NCBI RefSeq assembly: GCF_003590835.1
Contig: NZ_QYUQ01000002.1
Span: 2,604,001-2,668,000, forward strand
DNA length: 64,000 nucleotides
Source: Noviherbaspirillum sedimenti
GTDB taxonomy: Bacteria > Pseudomonadota > Gammaproteobacteria > Burkholderiales > Burkholderiaceae_D
Direction of reading: 5' to 3'
Under the pieces are notes generated by a model. It saw only the letters and a list, made by a program, of their open reading frames with translations, had not been told where the DNA came from and did not search any database. This document shows positions 4,179 through 60,973 of the stretch, one piece after another (positions within the stretch are counted from its first letter, which is position 1; every line of letters starts with the position of its first letter). Made by a program: the position numbers and the translations under genes.

Positions 4179-5373
4179 TATGCCCCCACAAGCTTCCTCC
4201 TCATCTTTGTATATCGGCCTGATGTCCGGCACCAGCCTGGATGGCGCCGATGGTGTTCTCGCCGCCTTCCCCGCCGATTATCGTGGTGGCCCGATCGAGA
4301 CCTTGGCCAGCGCGTATATCGCCTTCCCACCGGAGCTGCGGCGCGACATGCTGGCGCTGCAAGCGGCCGGCAATGATGAGATCCACCGTGAAGCCCTGCT
4401 CGCCAATACCCTCGCCAGCCACTATGCCGCCTGCGTTGTCAGTCTGCTGACGCAGGCGGGGGTGGCGCCGCGGCAGGTCGCGGCCATCGGCGTGCATGGC
4501 CAGACCATCCGGCACCGCCCGGAACTGGGCTATACCCGCCAGACCAACAACCCCGCCCTGCTGGCCGAATTGACCGGCATCGATGTGGTCGCCGACTTCC
4601 GCAGCCGCGACATCGCCGCCGGCGGCCAGGGTGCGCCGCTCGTGCCCGCCTTCCATCAGGCGGTATTTGCCGCTGCCGATACGGTGAGAGTGGTCGCCAA
4701 CATCGGCGGCATCAGCAACATCAGCGTGCTGCCGCCACGAAGCGGGGACGCCAACCCGGTTATGCCCAGCGCGCCAGGCACGCCAGGAATAATCGGCTTC
4801 GATACCGGCCCCGGCAATGTCCTGATGGATGCCTGGATCGGCCTGCACCAGGGTCTGGCGTATGACAGCAATGGCGACTGGGCGTCCAGCGGCAGGGTTT
4901 TGCCAACCCTGCTGGACGCCTTGCGCGACGAAGCATTTTTCAGCCTGGTGCCGCCCAAAAGCACCGGCCGCGACTTGTTCCACCTGGAATGGCTGCGGCA
5001 GAAACTCGCTGCAGCCGAGATGACCGGCACCACACCCCCCCCCCAGGATGTGCAGGCGACCCTGGCATCCTTTACTGCCACCACCCTGGCCGACGCCATT
5101 GCCAGTCATGCCCCGGGTGCCGCTGCCGTCTACATCTGCGGCGGCGGCGCCTGCAATGCGCATCTGCTGCTGCAACTGCAAAGCGCCCTGGCGCAACACC
5201 ATATGCACATCGCAGTCGACTCCACCGCGGCGCTGGGCATGCCGCCCAACCATGTCGAAGCACTCGCCTTTGCCTGGCTGGCGCAGCGCTTTTGCCTGCG
5301 TCAGCCAGGCAACCTGCCGGCGGTCACCGGCGCCCGGGGCGACCGCATCCTGGGTGCGCTGTATCCGGCCTGA
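4165..5373 (+). CDS. anmK: anhydro-N-acetylmuramic acid kinase
   Basis: A cytosolic kinase that opens and phosphorylates 1,6-anhydro-MurNAc to MurNAc-6-phosphate in peptidoglycan recycling. Clear motifs: LYIGLMSGTSLDGADG (N-terminal phosphate-binding loop), VHGQTIRHRP, RSRDIAAGGQGAPLVPAFH, NIGGISNIS, GFDTGPGNVLMD and ICGGGACNAHL, in the ASKHA-type order. 402 aa from ATG 4165 or 397 aa from ATG 4180; neither has a Shine-Dalgarno. A TAAAAT at 4150-4155 would put a transcription start within a few bases of ATG 4165, so a leaderless mRNA is possible. It sits directly behind the M23 murein peptidase. Confidence 0.95.
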   Translation: MNGFFMPPQASSSSLYIGLMSGTSLDGADGVLAAFPADYRGGPIETLASAYIAFPPELRRDMLALQAAGNDEIHREALLANTLASHYAACVVSLLTQAGVAPRQVAAIGVHGQTIRHRPELGYTRQTNNPALLAELTGIDVVADFRSRDIAAGGQGAPLVPAFHQAVFAAADTVRVVANIGGISNISVLPPRSGDANPVMPSAPGTPGIIGFDTGPGNVLMDAWIGLHQGLAYDSNGDWASSGRVLPTLLDALRDEAFFSLVPPKSTGRDLFHLEWLRQKLAAAEMTGTTPPPQDVQATLASFTATTLADAIASHAPGAAAVYICGGGACNAHLLLQLQSALAQHHMHIAVDSTAALGMPPNHVEALAFAWLAQRFCLRQPGNLPAVTGARGDRILGALYPA

Positions 5374-5422
5374 GCCATGCGGCCATTCGGCGGCGAACCT
5401 GCGATGCGCATACAGCGGACGC

Positions 5423-5450
5423 AAAAAAAGCGCAGACTACGCTGCGCTTT
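5423..5450 (-). terminator. intrinsic terminator of erpA
   Basis: Read on the minus strand, AAAGCGCAG (5450-5442) and CTGCGCTTT (5435-5427) form a 9-bp stem around a 6-nt loop, followed by a seven-T run (A-run 5423-5429). It lies 19 bp beyond the erpA stop. Confidence 0.85.
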
Positions 5451-5468
5451 GTGCGAGAGCAGAAAAGC

Positions 5469-5819
5469 CTAAGCCGAGAACGACGAGCCGCAACCGCAGG
5501 TGGTGGTGGCGTTCGGGTTCTTGATGACGAATTGCGCACCTTCCAGGTCGTCCTTGTAATCGATTTCAGCGCCCACCAGGTACTGGTAGCTCATCGAATC
5601 GATCAGCAATTGCACGCCGTTCTTGGACATGGTGGTGTCGTCTTCGTTGACGATTTCATCGAAGGTAAATCCGTACTGGAATCCGGAGCAGCCGCCGCCC
5701 TGCACGAATACGCGCAACTTCAGGTCGGGATTGCCCTCTTCCTCGATCAATTGCGCGACCTTGCTGGCGGCGCTGTCGGTAAACACGATCGGTGCGGGCA
5801 TTTCTGTGATGGCATTCAT
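5469..5819 (-). CDS. erpA: iron-sulfur cluster insertion protein ErpA
   Basis: A 116-aa A-type carrier that receives Fe-S clusters and inserts them into apo-proteins, including those of isoprenoid synthesis. The three cluster-ligand cysteines are visible: [11 protein letters not shown] (residue about 44) and the C-terminal TTCGCGSSF pair. The FDEIVNEDD segment and overall length fit ErpA better than IscA. A strong intrinsic terminator follows, and a bactofilin gene on the same strand lies 58 bp upstream, so erpA probably has its own promoter there. Confidence 0.95.
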
Positions 5820-5877
5820 GACTTACTCCTACTGGAAACGTTACGGCAGATGCAGCATTATAACCCGATACAAATAC

Positions 5878-6285
5878 TCAGGTATTCGTGCCGACCAGCT
5901 TGGCCGGCGCCGCCAGTTTCAACACCGGCTCTTCCACCTGGTCATGCGTCAGCTTGCCGGACACGAGGGCGCCGCCATGCATTTCCAGCGCCTTGTAATT
6001 GACATCGCCGGTAATGCGCGCCTTCGGTTGCAATTCCAGCAACTCGCAGGAATAGACTGATCCGTTGATCTGGCCATTGACCACGAGGTGCGCCGCGCGC
6101 ACCTCGCCCTCGATCACCGCATGTTCGGAAATCACCAGCATGCTGGCCAGGCTCGGATCGGCGATCACATTGCCGCGGATATGGCCATCGATACGCAGCC
6201 CCCCCTTGAAATGCAGGTTGCCCTCGATTCTGGTGGATAAGCCGATCAGGCTATCGATGGTGCTTTTGCTTTTGCTGCCAAACAT
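5878..6285 (-). CDS. bactofilin family polymer-forming protein
   Basis: A 135-aa bactofilin (DUF583/polymer-forming cytoskeletal). The sequence is a run of short beta-helix-like repeats rich in Gly/Val/Ile (IEGNLHFKGGLRIDGHIRGNV, then VISEHAVIEGEV, HLVVNGQINGSV), flanked by short tails, as expected for filaments that scaffold cell-wall or envelope factors. The start at 6285 is set by MFGSKSKS and a clean AAGGAG Shine-Dalgarno; the longer frame upstream is not family-like. The gene upstream encodes a coiled-coil membrane protein only 22 bp away, so they are likely co-transcribed and may act together. Confidence 0.92.
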   Translation of the reverse strand: MFGSKSKSTIDSLIGLSTRIEGNLHFKGGLRIDGHIRGNVIADPSLASMLVISEHAVIEGEVRAAHLVVNGQINGSVYSCELLELQPKARITGDVNYKALEMHGGALVSGKLTHDQVEEPVLKLAAPAKLVGTNT

Positions 6286-6307
6286 GATGGCACTCCTTTG
6301 ACAATTT

Positions 6308-50284: not shown

Positions 50285-50360
50285 GGCCTGGTAGCTCAGT
50301 CGGTAGAGCAGAGGATTGAAAATCCTTGTGTCGGTGGTTCGATTCCGCCCCGGGCCACCA
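50285..50360 (+). tRNA. tRNA-Phe (anticodon GAA)
   Basis: 76 nt with encoded CCA: GGCCTGGTAGCTCAGTCGG ... GAGGATTGAAAATCCTTG (anticodon GAA, 50318-50320) ... GGTTCGATTCCGCCCCGGGCCACCA. Acceptor stem GGCCTGG/CCGGGCC pairs with one G-U. Its 3' part from 50314 recurs at 58887 and 60029, showing it as an integration site; the gene is intact because the incoming element restored the 3' half. Confidence 0.98.
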
Positions 50361-50361
50361 A
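50316..50361 (+). repeat. att-like direct repeat, copy 1 (tRNA-Phe 3' half)
   Basis: 46 bp identical to 60029-60074: TTGAAAATCCTTGTGTCGG onwards through GGGCCACCAA. It runs from the anticodon loop through the CCA end. The AGGATT-GAA-AATCCT anticodon stem-loop provides the small inverted repeat usual for tyrosine-recombinase core sites. Confidence 0.9.
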
Positions 50362-50374
50362 GAATATACCTCGC

Positions 50375-50404
50375 AAAACGCCAATCCATCGTGATTGGCG
50401 TTTT
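50375..50404 (+). terminator. intrinsic terminator after tRNA-Phe
   Basis: AAAACGCCAATC (50375-50386) pairs with GATTGGCGTTTT (50393-50404) around a 6-nt loop. It lies 14 bp past the tRNA and is probably supplied by the inserted segment, since a different hairpin follows the second att copy. Confidence 0.85.
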
Positions 50405-50707
50405 CGTTTCCAGAACTTGCAGTCCTTGGCTCCGGTCCATCTCCGGCTCGACAAGTGCTCACCGCTTTGATCGGAAGTCCTGTCCGAATCGTCCAAGTAG
50501 CCGTCGCGCCCGACGAGGGATGCCATTGACGTCGCTACGCCCGATCAACGAGTTCTGCGTTGACGCGCCCTAATATCCCCACCATACTCACTGCCACGTT
50601 AAACTTGGGCAACATTTGCCTTTTCCATACTAAGATCGCCTAGGACCTACTAAGAGGCCCGAGGTTTGTTACACGTAAATTCCGCCTCACGAGCAAAGCA
50701 AAGCACC
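50405..50707. other. left end of the island, no gene recognised
   Basis: Between the tRNA-Phe terminator and the modification gene I see no ORF of merit and no integrase, although integrases usually sit at this end of tRNA-borne islands. Presumably it contains the promoter of the restriction-modification operon. Confidence 0.5.
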
Positions 50708-53158
50708 ATGGCACGTATCGAAGAAAAAATAGCCGAGATTACAGATTCCGCACTCCGCTTAAGCATTGCAGAGGAAGTCGCAAATCTAAAAAAACACACT
50801 CGATTCGGACTGGTCTTTGAAGAACACCAGCCAGAGTTTGTACCCGTCTATGGTAAAAAGATTAAGCGGGGGGAACGCGTTGCCAAGAAAACAGGTGATT
50901 TGACGGTAATTTGGCGAGTAGTCGCGATTAAAAATGGACAGGCCCTTTGCGAGCTAGAAATAGGTAGTCAAGGAATAGCTGGGGATCGCGAAACATTCCC
51001 CGTCGAGCAATTAGTGATCATTCGCAGCATGGGTGAGCCTATTTATCCATCGCTGACACCTGTCGATTCGGTAATAAATGGAGACCCATCGCTTCCCCAC
51101 CATGTTTTAATCGAGGCGGACAATTACCACGCCCTGCAACTGTTACTTTTCCCTTACGAGCGAAAAGTAGACTGCATCTACATCGATCCCCCATACAACA
51201 CAGGGGCACGGGACTGGAAATACAACAACGATTACGTTGATGACAACGACTCGTGGCAGCACAGCAAATGGCTGACTTTTATGTCCAAGCGCCTCCGGCT
51301 GGCCAAGCGGCTGTTGAATCCTGATTCCGGCGTATTGATCGTCACGATCGACGAACATGAGGTTCACCACCTAGGTTGCCTGCTGGAGCAGGAGTTTCCT
51401 GATGCGACCATGCAAATGGCGACAATCGTGATCAATCAGAAAGGTGTCGCGCAAGGCGGTTTGTCGCGGGCGGAAGAATATGCCTTATTCGTTTTCATGC
51501 CGAACGCAAATGTTCCACCAGCTGCGGACGACCTCTTATCACCCGACCGTGCTGACAACAAACGATTTCGCAACCCGCGCTGGGAATGGCTTTTGCGCGG
51601 TGGGACTAACTCACGGCGAGAGGATCGACCAGGGTTATTTTTCCCTGTTCATGTCGACCCCGCTACGCGCACGATCGTCAGCATCGGCGAGCCACTACCG
51701 CTTGACCAGCGGCCTGACCAGGGAACGGTGGACAACACGGTCGCCTGGCCTTTTCGCACCGACGGCACATTGGGAAATTGGCGTGTTAGCCCACCGACTT
51801 TGCGAACTCTTCTTGCTAAAGGATACGTCAAACTGGGGGGTTACGATGAAGCTCGCAAAACTTGGACGATTCTGTATCTGGGCCAGAAGGCACAGCGCCA
51901 GATCGACGAAGGTGCAATATGCATTGTAAGTCGCGACGCGACAACAAACGCGGTAGCGCTTGAGTACGTCGCAGGCGAACAACGATCAATAAAGACCGTT
52001 TGGCATCGCGCTTTACACGACGCTGGCACATACGGATCTAGTTTCTTGCGCAATATTCTTGGGGAAGGCGGACGTTTTGCGTTCCCAAAATCCATCTATG
52101 CAGTGCGGGATGCCGTTGCCGCCGTGGTGCGAGATAAGCCCAATGCGCTTCTGGTCGATTTTTTCGCTGGGAGCGGAACCACGCTTAATGCCGTTAACCT
52201 CCTTAACGCCACGGACGGCGGCCAGCGCCAATGTATTTTGGTGACCAATAATGAGGTTTCCGAGGAAGAGTCCCGAAGCCTGACTGCTCAAGGATTGCAG
52301 CCGGGCCAGGACGAATGGGACCGGCACGGAATATGCCGATCTGTGACATGGCCGCGCTCAAAATTTACAATTCGCGGCGAACGCGACGATGGTACGTCGC
52401 TGCCCGGCGACTACATTACCGGTAAGCAGGTCCCGCGCGATAAACCCCGCAATATTCGTCAATTAGGATTTGTAGAAGGTCGCCATCTGACGGTACCGCA
52501 ACGCAAACAAGTTGCCGCTCTATTGCCCAATGTGCCCCAAAACAAGGTTGATGACGCACCTTGGCTCCTTAATGATGACATGGCTGTCTCGATTTTGTGG
52601 GACATACAACATGCATCGACTTGGCTGGAAGAGTTAGGTGAAGCTGACCACGTGACCGAGATTTTTGTTGTCACCATGGAAAATCGTGTCTTTACTCGCC
52701 TTAAAACCGAAATAATCGAATTGCTTGGGGCGCAGGTTGTCAGTGAGGACGAAAAACGGCCCCTGGCTAACGGCTTTGCGACCAACCTAGAATACTTCCG
52801 GTTGGATTTTCTCGATCCGCAAGAAATACAGATGGGCCGCCAGTTTGCTGCCGTTTTGCCGGTGTTATGGATGATGGCTGGGTCGCGTGGCGCGCGCCCG
52901 GCCCCACCTGACGAGCATGCCCCATGGTTGCTACCCGACGGTTGTCCATTCGCTGTATTAATGCAGGAAACGCGCTTCAAGGAATTTGTACGCCATGTGG
53001 ACCACCGGGCAGACCTAACGCATGTGTTTATCGTCACGAATTCGCACGATACGGTGCATAAACTGCGGCGTGAATGGCCAGAGCTGCATGTTGTGCAGCT
53101 ATACAAAGACTATCTCGAAAATTTCCGTATCAATTTGTCAGAGAACTCTACCCTATGA
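50708..53158 (+). CDS. type III restriction-modification system, DNA methyltransferase subunit (Mod)
   Basis: An 816-aa adenine methyltransferase subunit that recognises a short asymmetric site. Motif IV YIDPPYNTG at about residues 158-166 precedes motif I DFFAGSGTTLNA near residue 485, the beta-class order typical of Mod subunits. DEHEVHHLGCLLEQEF (about 215) is also a typical Mod segment. A long central region should hold the target-recognition domain. ATG 50708 (MARIEEKIAEITDS) is preferred over a TTG at 50666. The stop overlaps the Res start by 4 bp (ATGA), so both are translated together. DNA here is visibly less GC-rich than the core genes. Confidence 0.92.
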   Translation: MARIEEKIAEITDSALRLSIAEEVANLKKHTRFGLVFEEHQPEFVPVYGKKIKRGERVAKKTGDLTVIWRVVAIKNGQALCELEIGSQGIAGDRETFPVEQLVIIRSMGEPIYPSLTPVDSVINGDPSLPHHVLIEADNYHALQLLLFPYERKVDCIYIDPPYNTGARDWKYNNDYVDDNDSWQHSKWLTFMSKRLRLAKRLLNPDSGVLIVTIDEHEVHHLGCLLEQEFPDATMQMATIVINQKGVAQGGLSRAEEYALFVFMPNANVPPAADDLLSPDRADNKRFRNPRWEWLLRGGTNSRREDRPGLFFPVHVDPATRTIVSIGEPLPLDQRPDQGTVDNTVAWPFRTDGTLGNWRVSPPTLRTLLAKGYVKLGGYDEARKTWTILYLGQKAQRQIDEGAICIVSRDATTNAVALEYVAGEQRSIKTVWHRALHDAGTYGSSFLRNILGEGGRFAFPKSIYAVRDAVAAVVRDKPNALLVDFFAGSGTTLNAVNLLNATDGGQRQCILVTNNEVSEEESRSLTAQGLQPGQDEWDRHGICRSVTWPRSKFTIRGERDDGTSLPGDYITGKQVPRDKPRNIRQLGFVEGRHLTVPQRKQVAALLPNVPQNKVDDAPWLLNDDMAVSILWDIQHASTWLEELGEADHVTEIFVVTMENRVFTRLKTEIIELLGAQVVSEDEKRPLANGFATNLEYFRLDFLDPQEIQMGRQFAAVLPVLWMMAGSRGARPAPPDEHAPWLLPDGCPFAVLMQETRFKEFVRHVDHRADLTHVFIVTNSHDTVHKLRREWPELHVVQLYKDYLENFRINLSENSTL

Positions 53159-55677
53159 AATTGGAACTCAAAGACTTTCAAGATGATGCGGTCGATCAGC
53201 TCATCAAAAAGCTGAACCCCGCAAAACGCGAGGTGGCCGAAGGCGGCGACCGCCAAGCGGTGATTTTGGCGGCGCCTACTGGCTCGGGCAAAACGGTTAT
53301 CACTGCGGCGCTGATTGAAGAAATTTTGACGGGTTCAGACCGCTTTGTCGCGGAACCGGACGCGGTATTTTTGTGGCTCTCAGATCAACCTGTGCTGAAC
53401 GAACAATCCAAAAAGCGCATTGCCTCGGCATCCACAAAGTTGGGCAACAGTGATCTTATCATTGTGGACACCGACTTTGATCGGCAAACGTTTATCGGCG
53501 GTAAAGTCTACTTCATCAACACACAAAAATTGGGCAAGGATAAGCTGCTAACTTCGGGCCGTGGTGACAAACGCGCCTTTACTATTTGGGAAACCATCAG
53601 TAATACGGCAAAAGCGAAAAAAGACCGGTTTTACTTGATCATTGACGAGGCACATAGAGGCACCAAGGTTAACCGCAATGATGAAGCAACGCGCCAGACC
53701 GTGATGCAGAAGTTCGTCAAAGGATCTGAGGGAGAAATACCCGCCATAGACCTCATCCTGGGAGTGTCCGCCACACCGCAACGCTTTCAACAACTGATCG
53801 ACGGGCAAAGCAACCGGACGCCGCGCAAATGCGAGGTGAATCCACTGGACGTACGAGCCTCGGGTTTGCTGAAAGACCGCATAATGGTTTTTCACCCGAG
53901 TGAGGCGTTCCCGACAGATACCACGATGTTGCGCGCTGCAGTTCAGCAGTGGCGAAATATGGGAGTCCAATGGCAGGAATATACTCAAGAGCAGGGCCTA
54001 CCACCAATGCATCCGGCGCTGATCATTCAAGTGCAAGATGGCAGCGGCGATGGCTTGTCACGTACTGACTTAAACGAGGTAATCGCCACGATCGAGAAGG
54101 AGATCGGGCCAATTGACCCCATCCACATCGCCCATTGCTTCGAGCACGATACGCCGATTTCCGTCAACGGCGTGTTGATCCGCAAGATTGACGCGTCACG
54201 AATCCAGGAAGAAACGAATATTCGTTTCATCCTGTTCAAGATGGCACTGACCACAGGCTGGGATTGCCCGCGCGCCGAAGTGATGATGTCATTCCGAACA
54301 GCCCAAGACGACACCCTTATTGCCCAGCTTATCGGGCGGATGGTCCGCACACCACTAGCGCGTCGCATTGAGGGAAGCGAAATTCTGAACACGGTTTCGC
54401 TGTACCTACCCCACTACGATCAAGAGGGATTAACACGCGTTGTCAACCATCTAAAGCAAGGCGACCCGATGGAGCTTCCACCTACTGACGTGGAAGATGG
54501 CGCAAAAATGGTCACGTTCACGCGCGCCTCGAATATGGATGAAGCATTTGAAGCACTCACTAGCCTGCCGACTTACCGTGTGGAGCGAGTACGAAAAGTA
54601 TCTAACACGCGCCGCCTGATGGCACTATCACGTCTTCTAACGACCATGCATGAAGTAGACATGAGTGCGTGGGACGATTCCAAGAAGCTGGTGATCGATA
54701 CGCTGGACGCCGAACTTGCGCGACTAAAAGGCGACGATCCAAACTTCGACGCAAAAGTTAAAGGTTCAGGTCAGATCACGCTGAACGCTGTGATCGTCGA
54801 ACAAGGTACATGGAAGGAAACTCATGGCCAAACGCTTACAGTTGCACTCGACGAGAAAAACATCAACGACCTATTCAATCGCGCTGGGCAACGCCTAGGC
54901 GAAGGATTGCACCTTGACTATTGGCAGACACATTACGATCAAGACGAGGCCGCTGAAATGCCTAGCCGCTCTCGGCTTGAGCTTTTCTTGATGCTGCAAG
55001 ACGAGAAGACATGGAAGACGCTCGAAGCAGTCTGTGGCGCTCGTTGCGAGGCATTACTGAAACAAAATAAAGCTGCAATAAAAAAACTGACGACAGCAGA
55101 GCAAGAGGACTACAACAAGGTGCAGCAAATAGCGAAGGAGCCTGAAGCACTGTCCTTCCTTCCCCCCACCGAAATCATGCAATCAATTGACGCCAAAGAC
55201 CCGGCATTTCGGAATTACGATCAGCATCTGTTTGTCGATGCCAAGGAGAATTTCACAGCGGCGTTGAATACTTGGGAGCATCTAGTTATCGCTGCTGAAA
55301 TCGCGCAAGAGGATTTGGTCGGCTGGCTGCGCAATATTCCGCGTAAGCCCTGGGCATTGTCGCTGCCCTATGAACAGGCTGGTGAAGATAGGCCGATGTA
55401 TCCGGATTTTCTGGTCGTACGACGCGAGGCAGATGGAATGGTGGTAGACATTTTGGAACCGCATTCGCCTGCACTGTCCGATAGCTACGCCAAAGCAAAA
55501 GGCTTGGCGCAGTTCGCGGCAAAACACAAGATGAGTTTTGGCCGTATCGAATTGATTCGGCTTGAAGGGAACGAAATCAAGCGGCTTGATTTAATTGACG
55601 TTGAGATTCGCAAGAAGGTGTTGGCGGTCGATAGTAATGCCGGGCTGGATTTGGTGTTTGGTATCGTTAATTCATGA
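53155..55677 (+). CDS. type III restriction-modification system, helicase/endonuclease subunit (Res)
   Basis: An 840-aa SF2 helicase with nuclease domain. APTGSGKT (Walker A, residues about 40-47), LIIDEAHRGTK (DEAH, about 162), LGVSATPQRF (motif III) and TTGWDCPRAEVMMSF ... LIAQLIGRMVRTP (motifs V-VI). Near the C-terminus YPDFLVVRR ... VVDILEPHS (about 748-770) resembles a PD-(D/E)xK nuclease core, but the usual E-x-K position reads LEPH, so catalysis by the standard lysine is doubtful. ATG 53155 overlaps the Mod stop. With Mod it should form the restriction complex. Confidence 0.9.
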   Translation: MKLELKDFQDDAVDQLIKKLNPAKREVAEGGDRQAVILAAPTGSGKTVITAALIEEILTGSDRFVAEPDAVFLWLSDQPVLNEQSKKRIASASTKLGNSDLIIVDTDFDRQTFIGGKVYFINTQKLGKDKLLTSGRGDKRAFTIWETISNTAKAKKDRFYLIIDEAHRGTKVNRNDEATRQTVMQKFVKGSEGEIPAIDLILGVSATPQRFQQLIDGQSNRTPRKCEVNPLDVRASGLLKDRIMVFHPSEAFPTDTTMLRAAVQQWRNMGVQWQEYTQEQGLPPMHPALIIQVQDGSGDGLSRTDLNEVIATIEKEIGPIDPIHIAHCFEHDTPISVNGVLIRKIDASRIQEETNIRFILFKMALTTGWDCPRAEVMMSFRTAQDDTLIAQLIGRMVRTPLARRIEGSEILNTVSLYLPHYDQEGLTRVVNHLKQGDPMELPPTDVEDGAKMVTFTRASNMDEAFEALTSLPTYRVERVRKVSNTRRLMALSRLLTTMHEVDMSAWDDSKKLVIDTLDAELARLKGDDPNFDAKVKGSGQITLNAVIVEQGTWKETHGQTLTVALDEKNINDLFNRAGQRLGEGLHLDYWQTHYDQDEAAEMPSRSRLELFLMLQDEKTWKTLEAVCGARCEALLKQNKAAIKKLTTAEQEDYNKVQQIAKEPEALSFLPPTEIMQSIDAKDPAFRNYDQHLFVDAKENFTAALNTWEHLVIAAEIAQEDLVGWLRNIPRKPWALSLPYEQAGEDRPMYPDFLVVRREADGMVVDILEPHSPALSDSYAKAKGLAQFAAKHKMSFGRIELIRLEGNEIKRLDLIDVEIRKKVLAVDSNAGLDLVFGIVNS

Positions 55678-55772
55678 TTACTACTAGGCTCACTGCGAAA
55701 CGGGCGGGGCGCATCTAATACCCAGCCCGCCTTGCCTTCCGCCACTTCCCTTAATATGTGCAAGTCACAACA

Positions 55773-56351
55773 TCAGTCACCCAATCGGAATGCGGGCAAT
55801 GCTAGCAGGCGAACCGCCATGCTGACCGCAAAGGTGGCATCAAGTAGCAAATGGGTCTGCGCAGAAAGCGCTGATCCCAAGGCCCGCCGCGAAAGATTTG
55901 ACAGATCATCGATATTTCGAAAGTGGGAAAGTGGATTTCGCAGGTCCATCAGGCGTCGCAAATCATCGACATCGTTCTGACTTAATACGCCCCTCGCGAG
56001 ACACCGACGCAGCGTCTCCTGGAACGAAATCTTTTTCGGAAGCTCTTCAGCCTGAATACCCAACACAAGTTCTGCGGCAAGCACGTGTTCAGCGAGACCT
56101 TGGCATAGCATCACGGTCGCCACATAATTGCCGTGAACAAAACTAGCCCGTGCTTCGATCCACGCCGCGTAAGCCGTCTCTCCTCCTGGTAGCATTGTTC
56201 CGGTTGATCCCAGAACCCCGGAAAGATCGGAAAGCTGATGAAAACGCGCGACCTTGCCGCCGAGATCATCGTGCAAATCCGCGAGCAGCACTCGCACAAC
56301 CTCAATATCATTTAGCGGAGACAGTAACTTGCCCTGCGTGCCATCAGCCAT
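55773..56351 (-). CDS. HEPN-like hypothetical protein
   Basis: A 192-aa mostly helical protein. Residues about 118-142 contain DDLRRLMDLRNPLSHFRN, whose R-N-P-L-S-H fits the R-x4-H catalytic signature of HEPN ribonucleases, preceded by a helix with ALVMLCQ/LAEHVLAAEL character like DUF4145 proteins. HEPN domains occur in many toxins and anti-phage proteins. It is convergent with the restriction gene (96 bp apart) and no obvious partner is adjacent on its strand. The nuclease role is inference. Confidence 0.6.
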   Translation of the reverse strand: MADGTQGKLLSPLNDIEVVRVLLADLHDDLGGKVARFHQLSDLSGVLGSTGTMLPGGETAYAAWIEARASFVHGNYVATVMLCQGLAEHVLAAELVLGIQAEELPKKISFQETLRRCLARGVLSQNDVDDLRRLMDLRNPLSHFRNIDDLSNLSRRALGSALSAQTHLLLDATFAVSMAVRLLALPAFRLGD

Positions 56352-57069
56352 AGTGTCTCACTTCAAAGTTTGTAGTACAAGCAAGCAAGCAATTTGATTC
56401 TATCAGACAGGCTTTGTGGCGCGTACTGCCATCGCGAAAAATGAGGTTACGCGCTCGCGGGCCAGTCCCCAATCAACCGCAATTTGCCGCACATATTATT
56501 TTGACGGTTTACCCCAACCAAAGCCCAAGCCATCACAAGGTCTTGGGCTTTTTCCATTCAGGATCAGAAAAAAGAAATCCCACCAATGATGAAAGTTACC
56601 GCAAGGCCGACCTGGGAATGGTCGAGCAACAACAGCTGCGCACGATCTACTGAGAGGCGAGCAATCAGCATTCCTGCTTCACCGCCTGATACCCGAAGAA
56701 GCATAGTCGATGAACCCTGCCCTGCCTGCTTGCGCCAACGCGCAGAGCAGTCGGGGCATCATCACAACGACGCGCCCGTCATCACTCCTCCTGACGCTAC
56801 GCGAGATCTCTCGTTCCGGTGCGCAAGAATCGACCGAATCGACAATCGACCGAAGCCACGCCGCCTCGATAGTTGCCCCATCGCGTTCTGTGATCTATGC
56901 TCAAGCGCACAAGCCGTTCCGACCATCATTGTGGGGGCGCGCACCGACTGTAAGGGGTACCATCGGCTGCGGACGTAAGCATCGCCGTCTCAAGTGGTCG
57001 TTGTGGGTACAATGCGCAGACTGCAGCACGCCACAGTTCCGAATCAAATTGCCAACGAAAGAAAATGTG
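56352..57069. other. 718-bp gene-poor interval inside the island
   Basis: No convincing protein gene: the frames open here lack Shine-Dalgarno sites and family features. One feature stands out: an intrinsic terminator (56521-56554) on the plus strand with no plus-strand gene before it. The rest may be the remnant of lost genes plus the promoter of the protease gene. Confidence 0.5.
56521..56554 (+). terminator. orphan intrinsic terminator in the island
   Basis: AAGCCCAAG (56521-56529) pairs with CTTGGGCTT (56542-56550) around a 12-nt loop and runs into TTTTT (56549-56553). It follows about 170 bp with no ORF, so it may end a small RNA or a deleted gene. Confidence 0.7.
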
Positions 57070-57903
57070 ATGTCAGAAATCAAGACAGCTGGTGAACTGG
57101 GCACTGAACTTGGGGAGCATTGCTTAGAAGTCGCAAAAGATAGATTTAAGGAAGCCATTCGACCTATATATTGCAGCACAGCCCAAGGCACGCCAGTACA
57201 TGAGGGGTCCTGCGTACTGCTTAAGATCGACGGAAAACATGTGCTCCTGACAGCCTCCCATGTTATCGATGCACATAAGATTAATGACACCACACTCTAT
57301 GTCGGTGGCGAACATTCGTTGCTGAAGATAGAGGGTGAATTTTGGGCTACTGAGGCCAAAGCGGGAAACCGGCTGAAGGATCGGTACGACTTCGCAGCAT
57401 ACCTAATGCCTGATAAGTTCGTTACGGATATGGGCAATGTTCAATACATCTCGCAGGACGAGATCGCTCCGGATAGGACGGACCATCATGGCCGTCTTTA
57501 CTCGATCATCGGGTACCCGAACACAAAGAACAAGTCCATCGACAGAAAAAATTATTCTGTGCAGTCAATCAGATGGCATTATTTCTCCACTCATCAGGAT
57601 AGCCCTGACCTACTGAAGAAGCTCAGCGTAACCGGGGAGGACCATATATTTGTTGGCTATGACAGGAAGCAATCGAAAGATTCAAACGGGATACTTGTCG
57701 GGTCTGTTTCGACTCGCGGCGTGAGCGGTGGTGCTGTTTTTGATTTGGGTAACTTCGCCAATCCTACGAACTATGCGCGCGATGTCAAATGCACCCCGCG
57801 TCTTGCCGGAATTTTCATCGAATTCCATCACGAGCACCATGCCACTGTGACGACGAAAATAGGGGTCATCCTAAAAGCCCTTCGAGCTTGCGAGGTCACA
57901 TAG
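57070..57903 (+). CDS. trypsin-like serine protease
   Basis: A 277-aa protein with the trypsin-fold catalytic triad: His 64 in LLTASHVID, Asp 107 in DRYDFAAYL, and Ser 219 in RGVSGGAVFDLG (G-x-S-G-G). No signal peptide, so the protease should act in the cytosol. ATG 57070 is the first good start (MSEIKTAGELG); a longer frame reaches 56710 but is a poor coding sequence. The next gene encodes a protein with a strongly acidic tail, 176 bp on. Cytosolic trypsin-like proteases are known as effectors in some anti-phage systems, but no known system is recognised here. Confidence 0.8.
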   Translation: MSEIKTAGELGTELGEHCLEVAKDRFKEAIRPIYCSTAQGTPVHEGSCVLLKIDGKHVLLTASHVIDAHKINDTTLYVGGEHSLLKIEGEFWATEAKAGNRLKDRYDFAAYLMPDKFVTDMGNVQYISQDEIAPDRTDHHGRLYSIIGYPNTKNKSIDRKNYSVQSIRWHYFSTHQDSPDLLKKLSVTGEDHIFVGYDRKQSKDSNGILVGSVSTRGVSGGAVFDLGNFANPTNYARDVKCTPRLAGIFIEFHHEHHATVTTKIGVILKALRACEVT

Positions 57904-58079
57904 TTCGGTTGGCGCTTGACTCTCCGCCCAAGGAAAGTTAACGACTTTGCCCTGCTTGCGCTGCCGCACCAGCACCATGGCATGGGCGCCGAGAAGACAT
58001 ACGGTCCACACGGGTTCAGTGCTAACATTGAACGTCCACGATCCAGTCAAGGCAGTGAAAAATCATACAGGAGGAACTC

Positions 58080-58538
58080 ATGTCGGAACGCAACGGTACA
58101 GCCAATCTACTGGCCCAAGTCAAAGCATTTCGCGAACTCAAAGACGATTACAGTCCAGAGGTCGCAGAAAGCCTGACCTCAAAGAATCTCCAACGAAATG
58201 ACGTTGATGCCTCCGTAACTGATGTTAAGGGATGGGCAAAAATTAATGAGGCTGCACTGCAAGGCCGCCTAGATATTCCAACTGAGATCACAATTGCAGA
58301 AGGAAAAGCTGCAATTGCTGCCGGGACCGCCATCGACCAACTTGCCGCAGTTTCAGTCGTCGTAGATGAGCAAGAAAGCGCTCAAGACGACGCTGGTGAC
58401 GATCAAGATGACGCTGATAGTGACGAGCAAGATGACAATGAGGTCTCAACTGTAGATGACCTGTATGGATATGATAATCCCGAAGATAACGAGGAAGCTG
58501 CCTTCGATGACGTCCTCAAAATCCAAGAAAATTCTTAG
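58080..58538 (+). CDS. hypothetical protein with acidic C-terminal tail
   Basis: A 152-aa protein of unknown family. The start is secure: AGGAGGAACTC precedes the ATG. Residues 1-95 are mixed and probably folded (TITIAEGK-like segment, helix-rich). From about residue 97 the chain is almost only Asp/Glu/Gln/Ser (DDAGDDQDDADSDEQDD), ending LKIQENS. Acidic tails act as DNA mimics, chaperone tails or unfolded substrates, none proven here. It follows the protease gene on the same strand in the same island segment and may be its partner or substrate. Confidence 0.75.
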   Translation: MSERNGTANLLAQVKAFRELKDDYSPEVAESLTSKNLQRNDVDASVTDVKGWAKINEAALQGRLDIPTEITIAEGKAAIAAGTAIDQLAAVSVVVDEQESAQDDAGDDQDDADSDEQDDNEVSTVDDLYGYDNPEDNEEAAFDDVLKIQENS

Positions 58539-58886
58539 TACCCAGATCACCCTGCGTGAATGCGGATTGTCTCTTGCCGGTCTTTTCCTATTATTCTCAA
58601 GGGCAGATGGATCTGTGGCGAAACCGTCGCACCAGAAAGACACCTCGCTCTACGCTCCCCGGCATGTGATAACCGGCCAGTCCGTGGCCGGTCATCGTGC
58701 AAATTTCAGGGCGGCAGCTACTTTAATGTCCCTTGAAGAAAATCCGTATTGCCAGGGAGGACTGCGGCGCGATGGGCAACCGGAACTTGCGACGGATTGT
58801 ATCGGCAACAAACTATGTTAAATTGACGACCAGTAGCACAACCTTGGTCCGACAAACTGACGGTGTGGCAACACGGGCGCCCCAAA
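58539..58886. other. 348-bp interval before att copy 2
   Basis: No credible gene. It includes a perfect 8-bp hairpin ACCGGCCA/TGGCCGGT (58672-58692) without a T-run, which could end the acidic-tail transcript, and then AT-richer sequence leading into the att copy. Confidence 0.5.
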
Positions 58887-58937
58887 GATTGAAAATCCTT
58901 GGGGCGGTGGTTCGATTCCGCCCCGGGCCACCAAGAA
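58887..58937 (+). repeat. att-like direct repeat, copy 2 (variant of tRNA-Phe 3' half)
   Basis: 51 bp matching 50314-50364 except two changes: TGTC reads GGGC right after CTTG. No tRNA 5' half precedes it, so it is not a tRNA gene. The preceding CGCCCCAA mirrors TTGGGGCG after the anticodon, making an extended palindrome over 58878-58906 centred on GAA. Confidence 0.9.
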
Positions 58938-58942
58938 AATCG

Positions 58943-58980
58943 AGCACTTAGCCCAGCCCGCAAGGTTGGGCTAAGTGCTT
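58943..58980 (+). terminator. hairpin terminator following att copy 2
   Basis: AGCACTTAGCCCA (58943-58955) pairs with TGGGCTAAGTGCT (58967-58979), and an inner GCC/GGT adds three pairs with one G-U; TT follows. It sits in the same position relative to the att copy as the tRNA-Phe terminator, but with unrelated sequence. Confidence 0.75.
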
Positions 58981-59160
58981 TCCGGAGTCTGTGTCACCCG
59001 ATTCGGGAAATACTCGGGTTATCTTGCTGCTGCAGTCATTCCGATTTGCCCGCCCATGCGCCAAGAAAAAATGCTTTATTTGGTCACGCCTTGTTAAAAA
59101 TAGCCCGTAACCCGCATCAGAAACAGATTTTGATAATTTTAGCGTGCTGGCAAATGGCAT

Positions 59161-59553
59161 TTACGGCAGTTCAACAATAGGGTGAGTTTCCAGCGTCCTG
59201 GCACACTTCACGAAAGCCTTGTCGAACGTCTTGAACCCGGTTTCTTTTGCACTCATAGCCAAGTGCAACGCATCGCCAAAGTCCATGCCACCTTCATACC
59301 AATGTAAGGTATATGCCAGCGCATCAAGATTCTGTGGTTTGAAATTTTCTAACCCGCACAATAAGCGAATTGATTTGGCAATTTCTGCCCGTTCGCAATC
59401 ACAACACTCCAGAACCCAAACCAATTCCAGAAATACAGTAATGGGCGCGGTGCAAGCTTCTGAACCATGCAGCAATTTTTCGGCTATATCGGCCTGTGCC
59501 GGCGAATCGTTCAGCAGATAACGAGCGAGGATGTTGGTATCAAGTGCGATCAT
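59161..59553 (-). CDS. vapC: PIN-domain toxin (VapC family)
   Basis: A 130-aa ribonuclease toxin. PIN-domain acidic residues are in IALDTNILARYL (first Asp), PITVFLELVWVLE (Glu), and MDFGDALHLAMSAKE and KTFDKAF (later Asp residues). VapC toxins cleave initiator tRNA or other RNAs. It starts 12 bp after the antitoxin stop, in antitoxin-toxin order. It lies in the small segment between att copies 2 and 3. Confidence 0.9.
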   Translation of the reverse strand: MIALDTNILARYLLNDSPAQADIAEKLLHGSEACTAPITVFLELVWVLECCDCERAEIAKSIRLLCGLENFKPQNLDALAYTLHWYEGGMDFGDALHLAMSAKETGFKTFDKAFVKCARTLETHPIVELP

Positions 59554-59565
59554 CGGGACGGCACC

Positions 59566-59832
59566 TCACTTACTTGCATCGTCTTGCGCCTTGAGCCGGG
59601 CCTTAATGCTGGCCTTGATATCGACATCATCGGGGATCTGCCTGCCCCGCTTGGCAAGGAAGCCCCGCACCTCTCTCGCCGTAACCCTAGGGAATAGCGT
59701 TGTCGGGGTGAGCGTTAAGCCTGTCGCTGTCATGCTGATAACAAATTCTGTGCCGGGCGGCAGGTGGAGGTTATCCCGAATGTTTTTCGGGATAACGATT
59801 TGGCCTTTGCTGGATAGTTTGACGGTTTCCAT
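59566..59832 (-). CDS. vapB: AbrB-type antitoxin (VapB family)
   Basis: An 88-aa antitoxin. The N-terminal swapped-hairpin AbrB domain VKLSSKGQIVIPKNIRDNL binds DNA; the C-terminal half (from about residue 50) should wrap around VapC. An inverted repeat just upstream (59847-59871) is a likely autoregulatory operator. First gene of the pair. Confidence 0.9.
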   Translation of the reverse strand: METVKLSSKGQIVIPKNIRDNLHLPPGTEFVISMTATGLTLTPTTLFPRVTAREVRGFLAKRGRQIPDDVDIKASIKARLKAQDDASK

Positions 59833-59846
59833 GTCGCACCTTGTTT

Positions 59847-59871
59847 GCGGTAAGTCTTGGCATCTTACCGC
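59847..59871 (-). promoter_or_regulatory. candidate VapBC operator palindrome
   Basis: GCGGTAAG (59847-59854) and CTTACCGC (59864-59871), a perfect 8-bp inverted repeat with a 9-bp spacer, 15 bp upstream of the vapB start. A second short repeat ACGCA-g-TGCGT follows at 59875-59885. AbrB-type antitoxins bind such sites. Confidence 0.65.
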
Positions 59872-60028
59872 AATACGCAGTGCGTACCAAGCGGACGTGT
59901 TATTACATGAAAATTCGTTCTACAATTCCAAACTCCCCCGCGCCGGCAAAGGCTTTGCGAGAAGGGAGGATCATGCTTTTGTAGAATGAATTGTTTAAGC
60001 CTTTGAATTGCTTAGTGAATGGGAAGAC

Positions 60029-60074
60029 TTGAAAATCCTTGTGTCGGTGGTTCGATTCCGCCCCGGGCCACCAA
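60029..60074 (+). repeat. att-like direct repeat, copy 3 (tRNA-Phe 3' half)
   Basis: 46 bp identical to 50316-50361. No tRNA 5' half precedes it. It should mark the junction with native chromosome; GC-rich core genes resume at 60284. Confidence 0.9.
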
Positions 60075-60110
60075 ATTCAAAGGCCACCCCGATCGCGGTT
60101 GGGCTTGTCG

Positions 60111-60121
60111 CCCCCCCCCCC
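60111..60121 (+). repeat. 11-C homopolymer tract
   Basis: Eleven consecutive C between att copy 3 and the response regulator gene, the longest homopolymer noticed in the window. It is non-coding and prone to slippage or base-calling error. Confidence 0.9.
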
Positions 60122-60283
60122 GGAAATAGCTACCTCCCCTCCTCGAACAAGCGTGGCTGCAAACAATCTGTTGCGCGGAACATGTTAAATATTGTCAACA
60201 AGGAATTAACAAATTCCCTGTACCGGTAAATCTTGGTAGATTAGAAGCATTCCAAGATTAAAACCAAAACCGGGGCAATTGTT

Positions 60284-60973
60284 ATGCGTATCGCAGTACT
60301 GGATGATGACCACAGTCAGACCGACCTGGTGTGCCAGGTGCTGAAATCGGCCGGCCACACCTGCTATCCCTTCCAGAGCGGCAAGGAGATGCTGAACCAG
60401 TTGCGTCGCGAAAGCTTCGACTTGCTGATCATCGACTGGCAAGTGCCTGACCTGAGCGGCCCCGAGGTTTTGCAGTGGGCGCGCGAAAAACTTTCCGCCA
60501 ACCTGCCGGTGCTGTTCATGACCAGCCGTTCGGGCGAGGATGACATCGTCGCCGGGCTTGCGGCCGGTGCCGACGATTACATGATCAAGCCGATTCGCCG
60601 CGGCGAACTGACCGCGCGGGTACAGGCGCTGCTGCGGCGCGCCTATCCGAACCAGACCAGCGCCGAACAGATCCAGTTCAGCCAGTTTGTGTTCGAACCG
60701 CGCACCGGCCGCCTGACCGCCAACGGCCAGGCGATCGAGGTAACGCAGAAGGAATTCGACCTGGCGCTGCTGTTTTTCCGCAACCTGGGCCGGCCGCTGT
60801 CACGCGCCTATATCCTTGAGGCAGTCTGGTCACGGGATGTCGACATCCCGTCGCGCACCATGGATACCCATGTCTCGCGTGTGCGCAGCAAGCTACAGTT
60901 GCGTCCGGAAAATGGATTTCGGCTGGCGCCAGTGTATAGTTACGGCTATCGTCTGGAACAGATAACCGAATAA
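60284..60973 (+). CDS. OmpR/PhoB-family response regulator
   Basis: A 229-aa two-component regulator. Receiver domain: acidic pocket DDD (7-9), phospho-acceptor Asp 51 in LLIIDWQVPD, and Lys in DDYMIKPIRRGEL. The C-terminal winged helix (about 130-225) ends with TMDTHVSRVRSKL ... YSYGYRLEQ. It is the first gene after the island and is followed by the FecR-LysM and CHASE2 genes, which probably supply signal sensing. Confidence 0.94.
   Translation: MRIAVLDDDHSQTDLVCQVLKSAGHTCYPFQSGKEMLNQLRRESFDLLIIDWQVPDLSGPEVLQWAREKLSANLPVLFMTSRSGEDDIVAGLAAGADDYMIKPIRRGELTARVQALLRRAYPNQTSAEQIQFSQFVFEPRTGRLTANGQAIEVTQKEFDLALLFFRNLGRPLSRAYILEAVWSRDVDIPSRTMDTHVSRVRSKLQLRPENGFRLAPVYSYGYRLEQITE

Follow-up and report, generated by a model that had tools for sequence, protein, structure and literature searches.

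Two short genomic islands without an integrase lie in tandem behind the tRNA-Phe(gaa) gene of Noviherbaspirillum sedimenti, in a 64,000-nt stretch of contig NZ_QYUQ01000002.1 (positions 2,604,001 to 2,668,000 of the forward strand; hereafter the window, whose coordinates are used below). The segment next to the tRNA gene (8528 bp between the tRNA copies) is termed unit B, and the segment beyond it (1095 bp) unit A. With moderate confidence, we read both as cassettes that have no integrase and were mobilized in trans by enzymes which other elements encode and which target tRNA-Phe. On this reading, unit A (a PIN/AbrB pair) would have inserted first, at the tRNA-Phe anticodon loop, and unit B (a type III restriction-modification system, a protein that we take to be HEPN-like and a trypsin-like peptidase) then between the tRNA and A. 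Each unit is built from a tRNA-Phe 3′ half followed by a hairpin, then its cargo, then a right arm that reaches up to the loop, and each insertion rebuilds the tRNA and exchanges its terminator. The units would excise as circles and insert via tyrosine integrases of tRNA-Phe specificity encoded on other elements, and cargo could thereby circulate among betaproteobacterial genera without a recombinase of its own.

The target gene is intact (50285-50360, + strand), being called by ARAGORN and the only tRNA kept at the Rfam gathering score; the presumed crossover zone is the anticodon loop (TTGAAAA, tRNA positions 32-38). A repeat finder placed three in-register copies of its 3′ half at 50314-50367, 58887-58940 (94%) and 60027-60080 (87% over 54 nt); the distances from copy to copy are 8573 and 1140 nt. 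The second copy, at the junction of B and A (58887-58937, +), has two mismatches, both within the tRNA part, and the third, at the outer junction with the chromosome (60029-60074, +), is identical to the tRNA-Phe 3′ half over 46/46 nt. A 32-nt core with ≤3 mismatches occurs at three sites in the whole 5.04-Mb genome, all at this locus (reversed control, 0). GC content is ~46-57% between 50.3 and 60.2 kb, compared with ~56-67% on both flanks. An initial annotation of the window had described an intact tRNA-Phe with two further copies of its 3′ half, dividing an AT-richer insert into 8.6- and 1.1-kb segments, and the three copies, the lower GC content and the spacing all bear this out. As in tRNA-targeted islands, the target tRNA is restored and the displaced 3′ fragment lies at the far end. 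ARAGORN also draws a degenerate tRNA-like sequence at 58862-58933, below the Rfam gathering score; here the left flank of the second copy, with two substitutions, gives a tRNA-like fold with anticodon GAA. A fourth copy hidden in unit B was sought on both strands and rejected, the best ungapped match (24/45 nt) falling within the range of 20 one-strand shuffles (21-25).

Neither unit encodes a recognizable recombinase. The genome has 23 matches to PF00589, none in the segments and the nearest ~102 kb upstream of tRNA-Phe, and a single match to PF00239, ~340 kb away; a tblastn search with 48 integrases as queries detected no fragment of one in A or B (E ≤ 0.01). The earlier statement that no tyrosine or serine recombinase is visible in either segment is thereby confirmed, and an integrase of the island's own, one mark of tRNA-targeted islands, is missing from both units. 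No transfer gene was found among the families matched by the scanned proteins, some of which match no family.

The uninterrupted site is found in a genome of the same genus (L057), in which an FAD-monooxygenase gene and tRNA-Phe are followed by a response-regulator gene ~210 nt after the tRNA. The same two protein genes flank the insert in the window, and downstream of the third copy, as far as the regulator gene, the sequence looks by eye like that of the empty site. In two further genomes of the genus, tRNA and regulator gene are 0.8 and 1.7 kb apart with no 3′-half copy, and in another (L059) the regulator gene was not found within the 13.6 kb fetched. A run of about eleven C lies behind the outer copy in the window (~60107-60120), where the empty site has a terminator-like hairpin. 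Unit A is probably older than unit B, because insertion at the tRNA pushes older units outward and A adjoins the chromosome. This order is supported by the hairpins, which occur behind the tRNA (60-nt piece, -17.6 kcal/mol, z -3.9; 0/200 shuffles fold as well) and behind the second copy (58942-58980, +; 53-nt piece, -31.4 kcal/mol, z -6.4; 0/200) only; behind the outer copy, 189/200 shuffles fold at least as well. The hairpin at the left end of unit A is presumably the former terminator of the tRNA before the arrival of unit B; it is strong but fails the T-run rule of our terminator test. An empty site in related genomes had been proposed as a check of sequential site-specific integration, and this account is now well supported by the L057 site, the hairpins and the sharp loop edge described below.

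To place the units among their relatives, we compared 57 segments bounded by tRNA-Phe 3′ halves, spread over 34 genomes and 13 genera, 12 of which belong to the family of the window. Pairs of copies >16 kb or <100 nt apart, copies without a further copy in the fetched stretch, and 5′ fragments were left out, among them a 36-kb island of G020 that carries an integrase; four of the segments kept (one from G008, two from G076 and one from contig C8 of G080) come from fetched stretches without an intact tRNA-Phe. Integrases were called with a tyrosine integrase profile built from the integrases of the N. sedimenti genome. By this measure 50/57 segments lack an integrase (median 2.6 kb; 43/50 are ≤5 kb) and 7/57 carry one (median 12.4 kb; one of these integrases, in G040, is truncated), a fraction that is not a family-wide rate, as the genomes were mostly chosen for extra tRNA-Phe copies. 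In 10 of these genomes, all 92 curated PF00589 matches fell outside the arrays, which hold 21 segments (coordinates compared by eye). The arrays can be long: G303 has five units in succession, of 1.2, 1.1, 3.3, 4.0 and 1.4 kb. In a less selected sample, at least 10 of 35 same-family genomes had a 3′-half copy at E ≤ 1e-14. Copies consisting only of a 3′ half numbered 47 for tRNA-Phe (27/28 genomes), 5 for tRNA-Arg(ccg) (4/28) and 2 for tRNA-Leu(taa) (1/28) at E ≤ 1e-12, one full-length degenerate row being left out; this is a contrast rather than a rate, because the genomes were picked for tRNA-Phe copies and the tRNA-Leu probe matched only 13/28 of them. Five loci (L075, L076, L077, L085 and L097) have 3′-half copies and no intact tRNA-Phe in the fetched stretch, which may reflect rearrangement or insertion at a second site; L097 also contains, at 4622-6300, a TnpA/TnpB-like pair of the IS200/IS605 kind (by eye) in a unit otherwise like one of G167.

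The units end at a defined point of the tRNA. Across 62 copies at ≥85% identity, the match to the tRNA rises abruptly at position 32, with which the anticodon loop begins: 36/62 copies match at position 31, and 55, 60 and 59/62 at positions 32-34. The 12 nt to the left of the loop resemble the inverted right half-site (mean 5.5/12, compared with 2.7-3.6 at eight other offsets; reached by 0/5000 shuffles), although part of this signal (positions 22, 23 and 28-31) coincides with the letters of the tRNA itself. A terminator-like hairpin lies within the first 100 nt of 53/57 segments, compared with 26/550 internal pieces. A terminator scan did not list these unit-start hairpins, and folding and a hairpin test of our own were used instead. 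The left end (first 100 nt) is common to at least one unit with an unrelated body in 47/57 segments, including unit B and excluding unit A; it is found in 45/50 segments without an integrase and 2/7 with one, a comparison in which genus and class are confounded. At the right, nine pairs of ends are alike, and three of them join units that otherwise differ in sequence. The first pairs unit A with a unit of another genus (L048) that carries a protein with HTH, HATPase and DUF4325 domains: the right arm of A (59911-60028, +) is 77% identical to its arm over 120 aligned nt. The second pairs unit B with a retron-bearing unit of another genus (L086), the sole strong common stretch being its last 325 nt; within the right arm of B (58565-58886, +), positions 58565-58876 are ~70% identical over 325 aligned nt. 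The third joins two units that lie side by side in L063, one Fic-like (by eye) and one with AbiE.

Common ends could also spread units by homology. Once a unit had formed, RecA-dependent exchange through the tRNA 3′ half and the left end would need no integrase; left ends are alike in 47/57 segments and span ~85 nt in the longer matches, giving, with the 3′ half, roughly 130 nt of homology. We consider this route improbable. The half-site-like left flank and the sharp loop edge suggest that a tyrosine recombinase acted at least when the units were first formed, unit A is without the common left end, and the units in stretches that lack tRNA-Phe (contig C8 of G080, and G076) are not explained by tRNA homology alone.

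Related units seem to have moved between species and genera. A Lamassu-bearing unit is 93.2% identical between G303 and G268 over 3357 nt, with different neighbours, whereas the flanking core gene is 81.7% identical. Between genera, an HDOD-bearing stretch reaches 91.0% over 1023 nt (core gene, 74.5%), and the corresponding values are 83.7% and 76.0% for a TetR/GST-like stretch (by eye) and 80.1% and 68.3% for a photolyase-related gene. A 6.6-kb segment of G016 includes pieces that form separate units in G117 and G268. As these units are more alike than the flanking core gene, integrase-less units appear to have moved after these lineages parted, unless the single core gene, a thin yardstick, misleads.

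Whether such units were once autonomous is the question on which the main rival turns. A and B would then have arrived as autonomous islands with an integrase of their own, have lost the enzyme once inserted and persist today as fixed remnants (cis-mobilizable elements (CIMEs) in the strict sense), by a decay route described in a review (PMC5704250). Such loss does occur at this site: a G087 unit retains a 57-residue integrase relic, the G040 integrase is truncated, and an array of G031 contains a pair of islands that are 93% identical across 6.4 kb, only one of them with an integrase; the greater length of the integrase-bearing segments and the unshared left end of unit A fit decay too. Against it stand the absence of any relic from A and B, the predominance of segments without an integrase, some of them more alike between lineages than the core gene, and the recurrence of both window right arms in units with other cargo and no integrase. 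We regard decay of A and B as a possible but rather unlikely origin. The initial annotation had left open a helper in trans or a deleted integrase. The comparative data favour the helper for the pool as a whole, on the strength of the integrase-less majority, the ends common to different cargo and the movement between lineages, while no helper was found in this genome among the 18/23 PF00589 places viewed; loss is seen in other units, and neither A nor B has an integrase relic.

In the N. sedimenti genome, integrase context was viewed in 13 regions covering 18/23 PF00589 matches. Four integrases in these regions adjoin a tRNA gene, at tRNA-Arg(ccg), tRNA-Ser(cga), tRNA-Ser(gga) and tRNA-Leu(taa), and among these places the proposed search for an integrase beside a matching attachment site came up empty, none lying beside tRNA-Phe. 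Compared with 48 integrases from the fetched loci (three best hits per query), the genome's own integrases gave matches of >100 residues that were all ≤33% identical; the higher values (36% and 41%) come from stretches of 58-70 residues within an interrupted gene. Plasmids or phages that carry the window arms were considered and rejected, as the pieces reported for 58600-60300 seem to match through the tRNA alone (15 of 40 plasmid records covered). A scan of a viral collection with the 3′ half gave one contig (L231), with an intact-looking tRNA-Phe and a 242-residue tyrosine recombinase. Some resident chromosomal enzyme might move the units instead, and the genome does encode enzymes that we take to be XerC/D and an integron integrase, the latter ~102 kb from the tRNA. 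The copies, however, are tRNA halves with a loop-centred edge, and nothing seen ties these enzymes to tRNA-Phe (dif and attC sites were not searched for), which makes this a very remote prospect. At G000:C2:2551910-2552512 (loci L002 and L228), ~52 kb upstream of the window, an integrase gene, whose product looks like an integron integrase by its motif, is adjoined by a gene for a 303-residue tyrosine recombinase of a three-copy family.

Several of these results weigh against mobilization in trans. No helper integrase for tRNA-Phe was found in this genome among the 18/23 PF00589 places viewed, the window arms were not found joined to any integrase, and the integrases in tRNA-Phe segments of relatives look diverse. 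The left end of unit A matched no other unit in the left-end query of the 57-segment comparison, and its membership of the pool thus depends on one 120-nt right arm; 6/9 of the right-end pairs have more than the arm in common. To these are added the tRNA letters in the half-site signal, the choice of genomes, the single core gene and the three cases of integrase loss or decay in G087, G040 and G031.

The cargo of unit B begins behind its left end (50361-50445, +), which comprises the terminator-like hairpin and ~85 nt like the left ends of many other units. A DNA methyltransferase gene (50708-53158, +; PF01555; PADLOC MTase_III PDLC03645, E 3.7e-136), the Mod of a type III restriction-modification system, is adjacent to a gene for a Res-like helicase, the candidate restriction enzyme (53155-55677, +; PF04851, E 2.7e-17), whose match to the PADLOC REase_III models is weak (best 2.6e-10). 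The next gene (55773-56351, -) encodes a 192-residue protein without a Pfam family that has, by eye, an R-x4-H motif, presumably HEPN-like; 1 of the 120 homologues listed carries the name HEPN in its source. JGI contigs of the same length (20,518 bp) are listed for both a 94% homologue of this protein and a 76% homologue of the methyltransferase, and for this reason the two may travel together. A trypsin-like peptidase follows (57070-57903, +; PF13365 under the curated cut-off; some homologues are named trypsin-like), and a 25% homologue of it lies directly behind a tRNA-Phe 3′ half in another genus (L071:8059-8799). Two frames matched no family: one for a 152-residue acidic protein (58080-58538, +; Pfam, PADLOC and other family scans) and a 121-codon frame that overlaps the right arm (58456-58821; Pfam scan). 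Unit A encodes a VapC-like PIN-domain toxin candidate (59161-59553, -; PF01850, E 6.6e-9) adjoining an AbrB/MazE-type antitoxin candidate (59566-59832, -; PF04014, TIGR01439), a VapBC-type arrangement by sequence. No further recognizable gene was seen in unit A, in keeping with the description of the minimal segment as a toxin-antitoxin pair only. The fetched relatives gave only distant matches to window cargo, namely to mod (L196), the peptidase (L071) and vapC (L074).

Of the 93 proteins listed for the related segments, 30 were chosen for a Pfam scan and 10 for a PADLOC scan, and several match no family. Defence-type cargo includes Lamassu LmuB with a Cap4 nuclease, a type II-A retron, AbiEi/AbiEii, a zeta toxin, NACHT-Mrr, an OLD-like ATPase, a UvrD-like helicase and an RmrA-like protein; other units carry photolyases, Mqo, an amidase, an alcohol dehydrogenase, and SOUL, glyoxalase, HDOD and LtrA proteins. 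Judged from these family matches, the cargo is often a single defence system, or between one and a few metabolic genes, and not all of it is defence.

Beyond the family, a pattern search across named genomes turned up 112 stretches in which a 3′ half lacks the GG of the tRNA in front of it, and at none of the 80 loci listed was an intact tRNA called at the site. Copies in Polynucleobacter and in Rhodobacteraceae have recurrent arms. In Polynucleobacter and relatives (L232-L245), P320, P322, P329 and others have repeats of the last 25-30 nt of tRNA-Phe ~0.5-4 kb apart, and a tyrosine recombinase of 188/189 residues occurs in some segments and is absent from others with the same arm. In Rhodobacteraceae (L106-L185), tRNA-Phe 3′-half copies occur in many genera with a few recurrent arms, and some loci (L109, L113 and L148) have at least two integrase genes near a 3′-half copy.

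If units this small move with no more than a tRNA half, a terminator and an arm, a single tRNA gene would serve as a cheap port through which genes for defence and other functions pass between genera, and most such units would escape island finders that look for an integrase. The system can be tested directly, as its ends and its crossover zone are defined and relatives (G031, G315, G130, G292 and G265) supply candidate helper integrases. We put forward more tentatively, and with less than even confidence, that tRNA-Phe is the attachment site of an integron-like cassette system, in which circulating units of mostly 1-5 kb make the locus an expandable library without a resident recombinase; in such a system each unit would bring a tRNA 3′ half as recombination site and a terminator to replace the old one, often along with a single defence or metabolic function, and the integrases of passing elements would move it.

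In the literature, we found nothing on integrase-less tRNA-Phe cassettes in this family, which is not proof of their absence in print. The nearest known systems, as portrayed in the parts of the sources used here, share some of the properties of the units. Additive flexible genomic islands are reported at tRNA-Lys repeats in Ca. Methylopumilus (PMC10872708), at tRNA-fragment repeats in Ca. Actinomarinales, with cassette transfer between genera (PMC7771536), and in Alteromonas (PMC4119200). As with the window units, variable cassettes have been added there beside a tRNA, and repeats of the tRNA's 3′ part mark them; this organization is found here between species rather than between strains. What we did not see described for these islands is an edge resolved to the anticodon loop, a comparison of unit ends, a count of segments without an integrase, and several units with a single defence system. 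CIMEs, cis-mobilizable elements formed by accretion, are described as decayed integrative and conjugative elements (ICEs) or integrative and mobilizable elements (IMEs) (PMC5704250). Like the window units, they are flanked by attachment sites, integrase-less and in tandem; movement by a neighbour's integrase is a CIME feature that the units here would share. Both attL and attR are kept in A and B without an integrase, and no transfer gene is among the matched families, with some proteins familyless. In the window units no integrase relic or transfer gene was recognized, whereas G087 and G040 retain integrase relics; unlike units here have ends in common. CALINs, integron cassette arrays without an integrase and dependent on one in trans (PMC11389934), are likewise arrays of short cassettes, and the units here would depend on an integrase in trans too, but the repeats at this locus are tRNA-Phe halves. 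Tycheposons, described as 4-200 kb long with a tyrosine recombinase (PMC10872708; also named in PMC11389934), are tRNA-bounded cargo units as well, whereas A and B have no tyrosine recombinase and 43/50 integrase-less units here are ≤5 kb. The cassettes are best read as a variant of the known additive islands and CIMEs.

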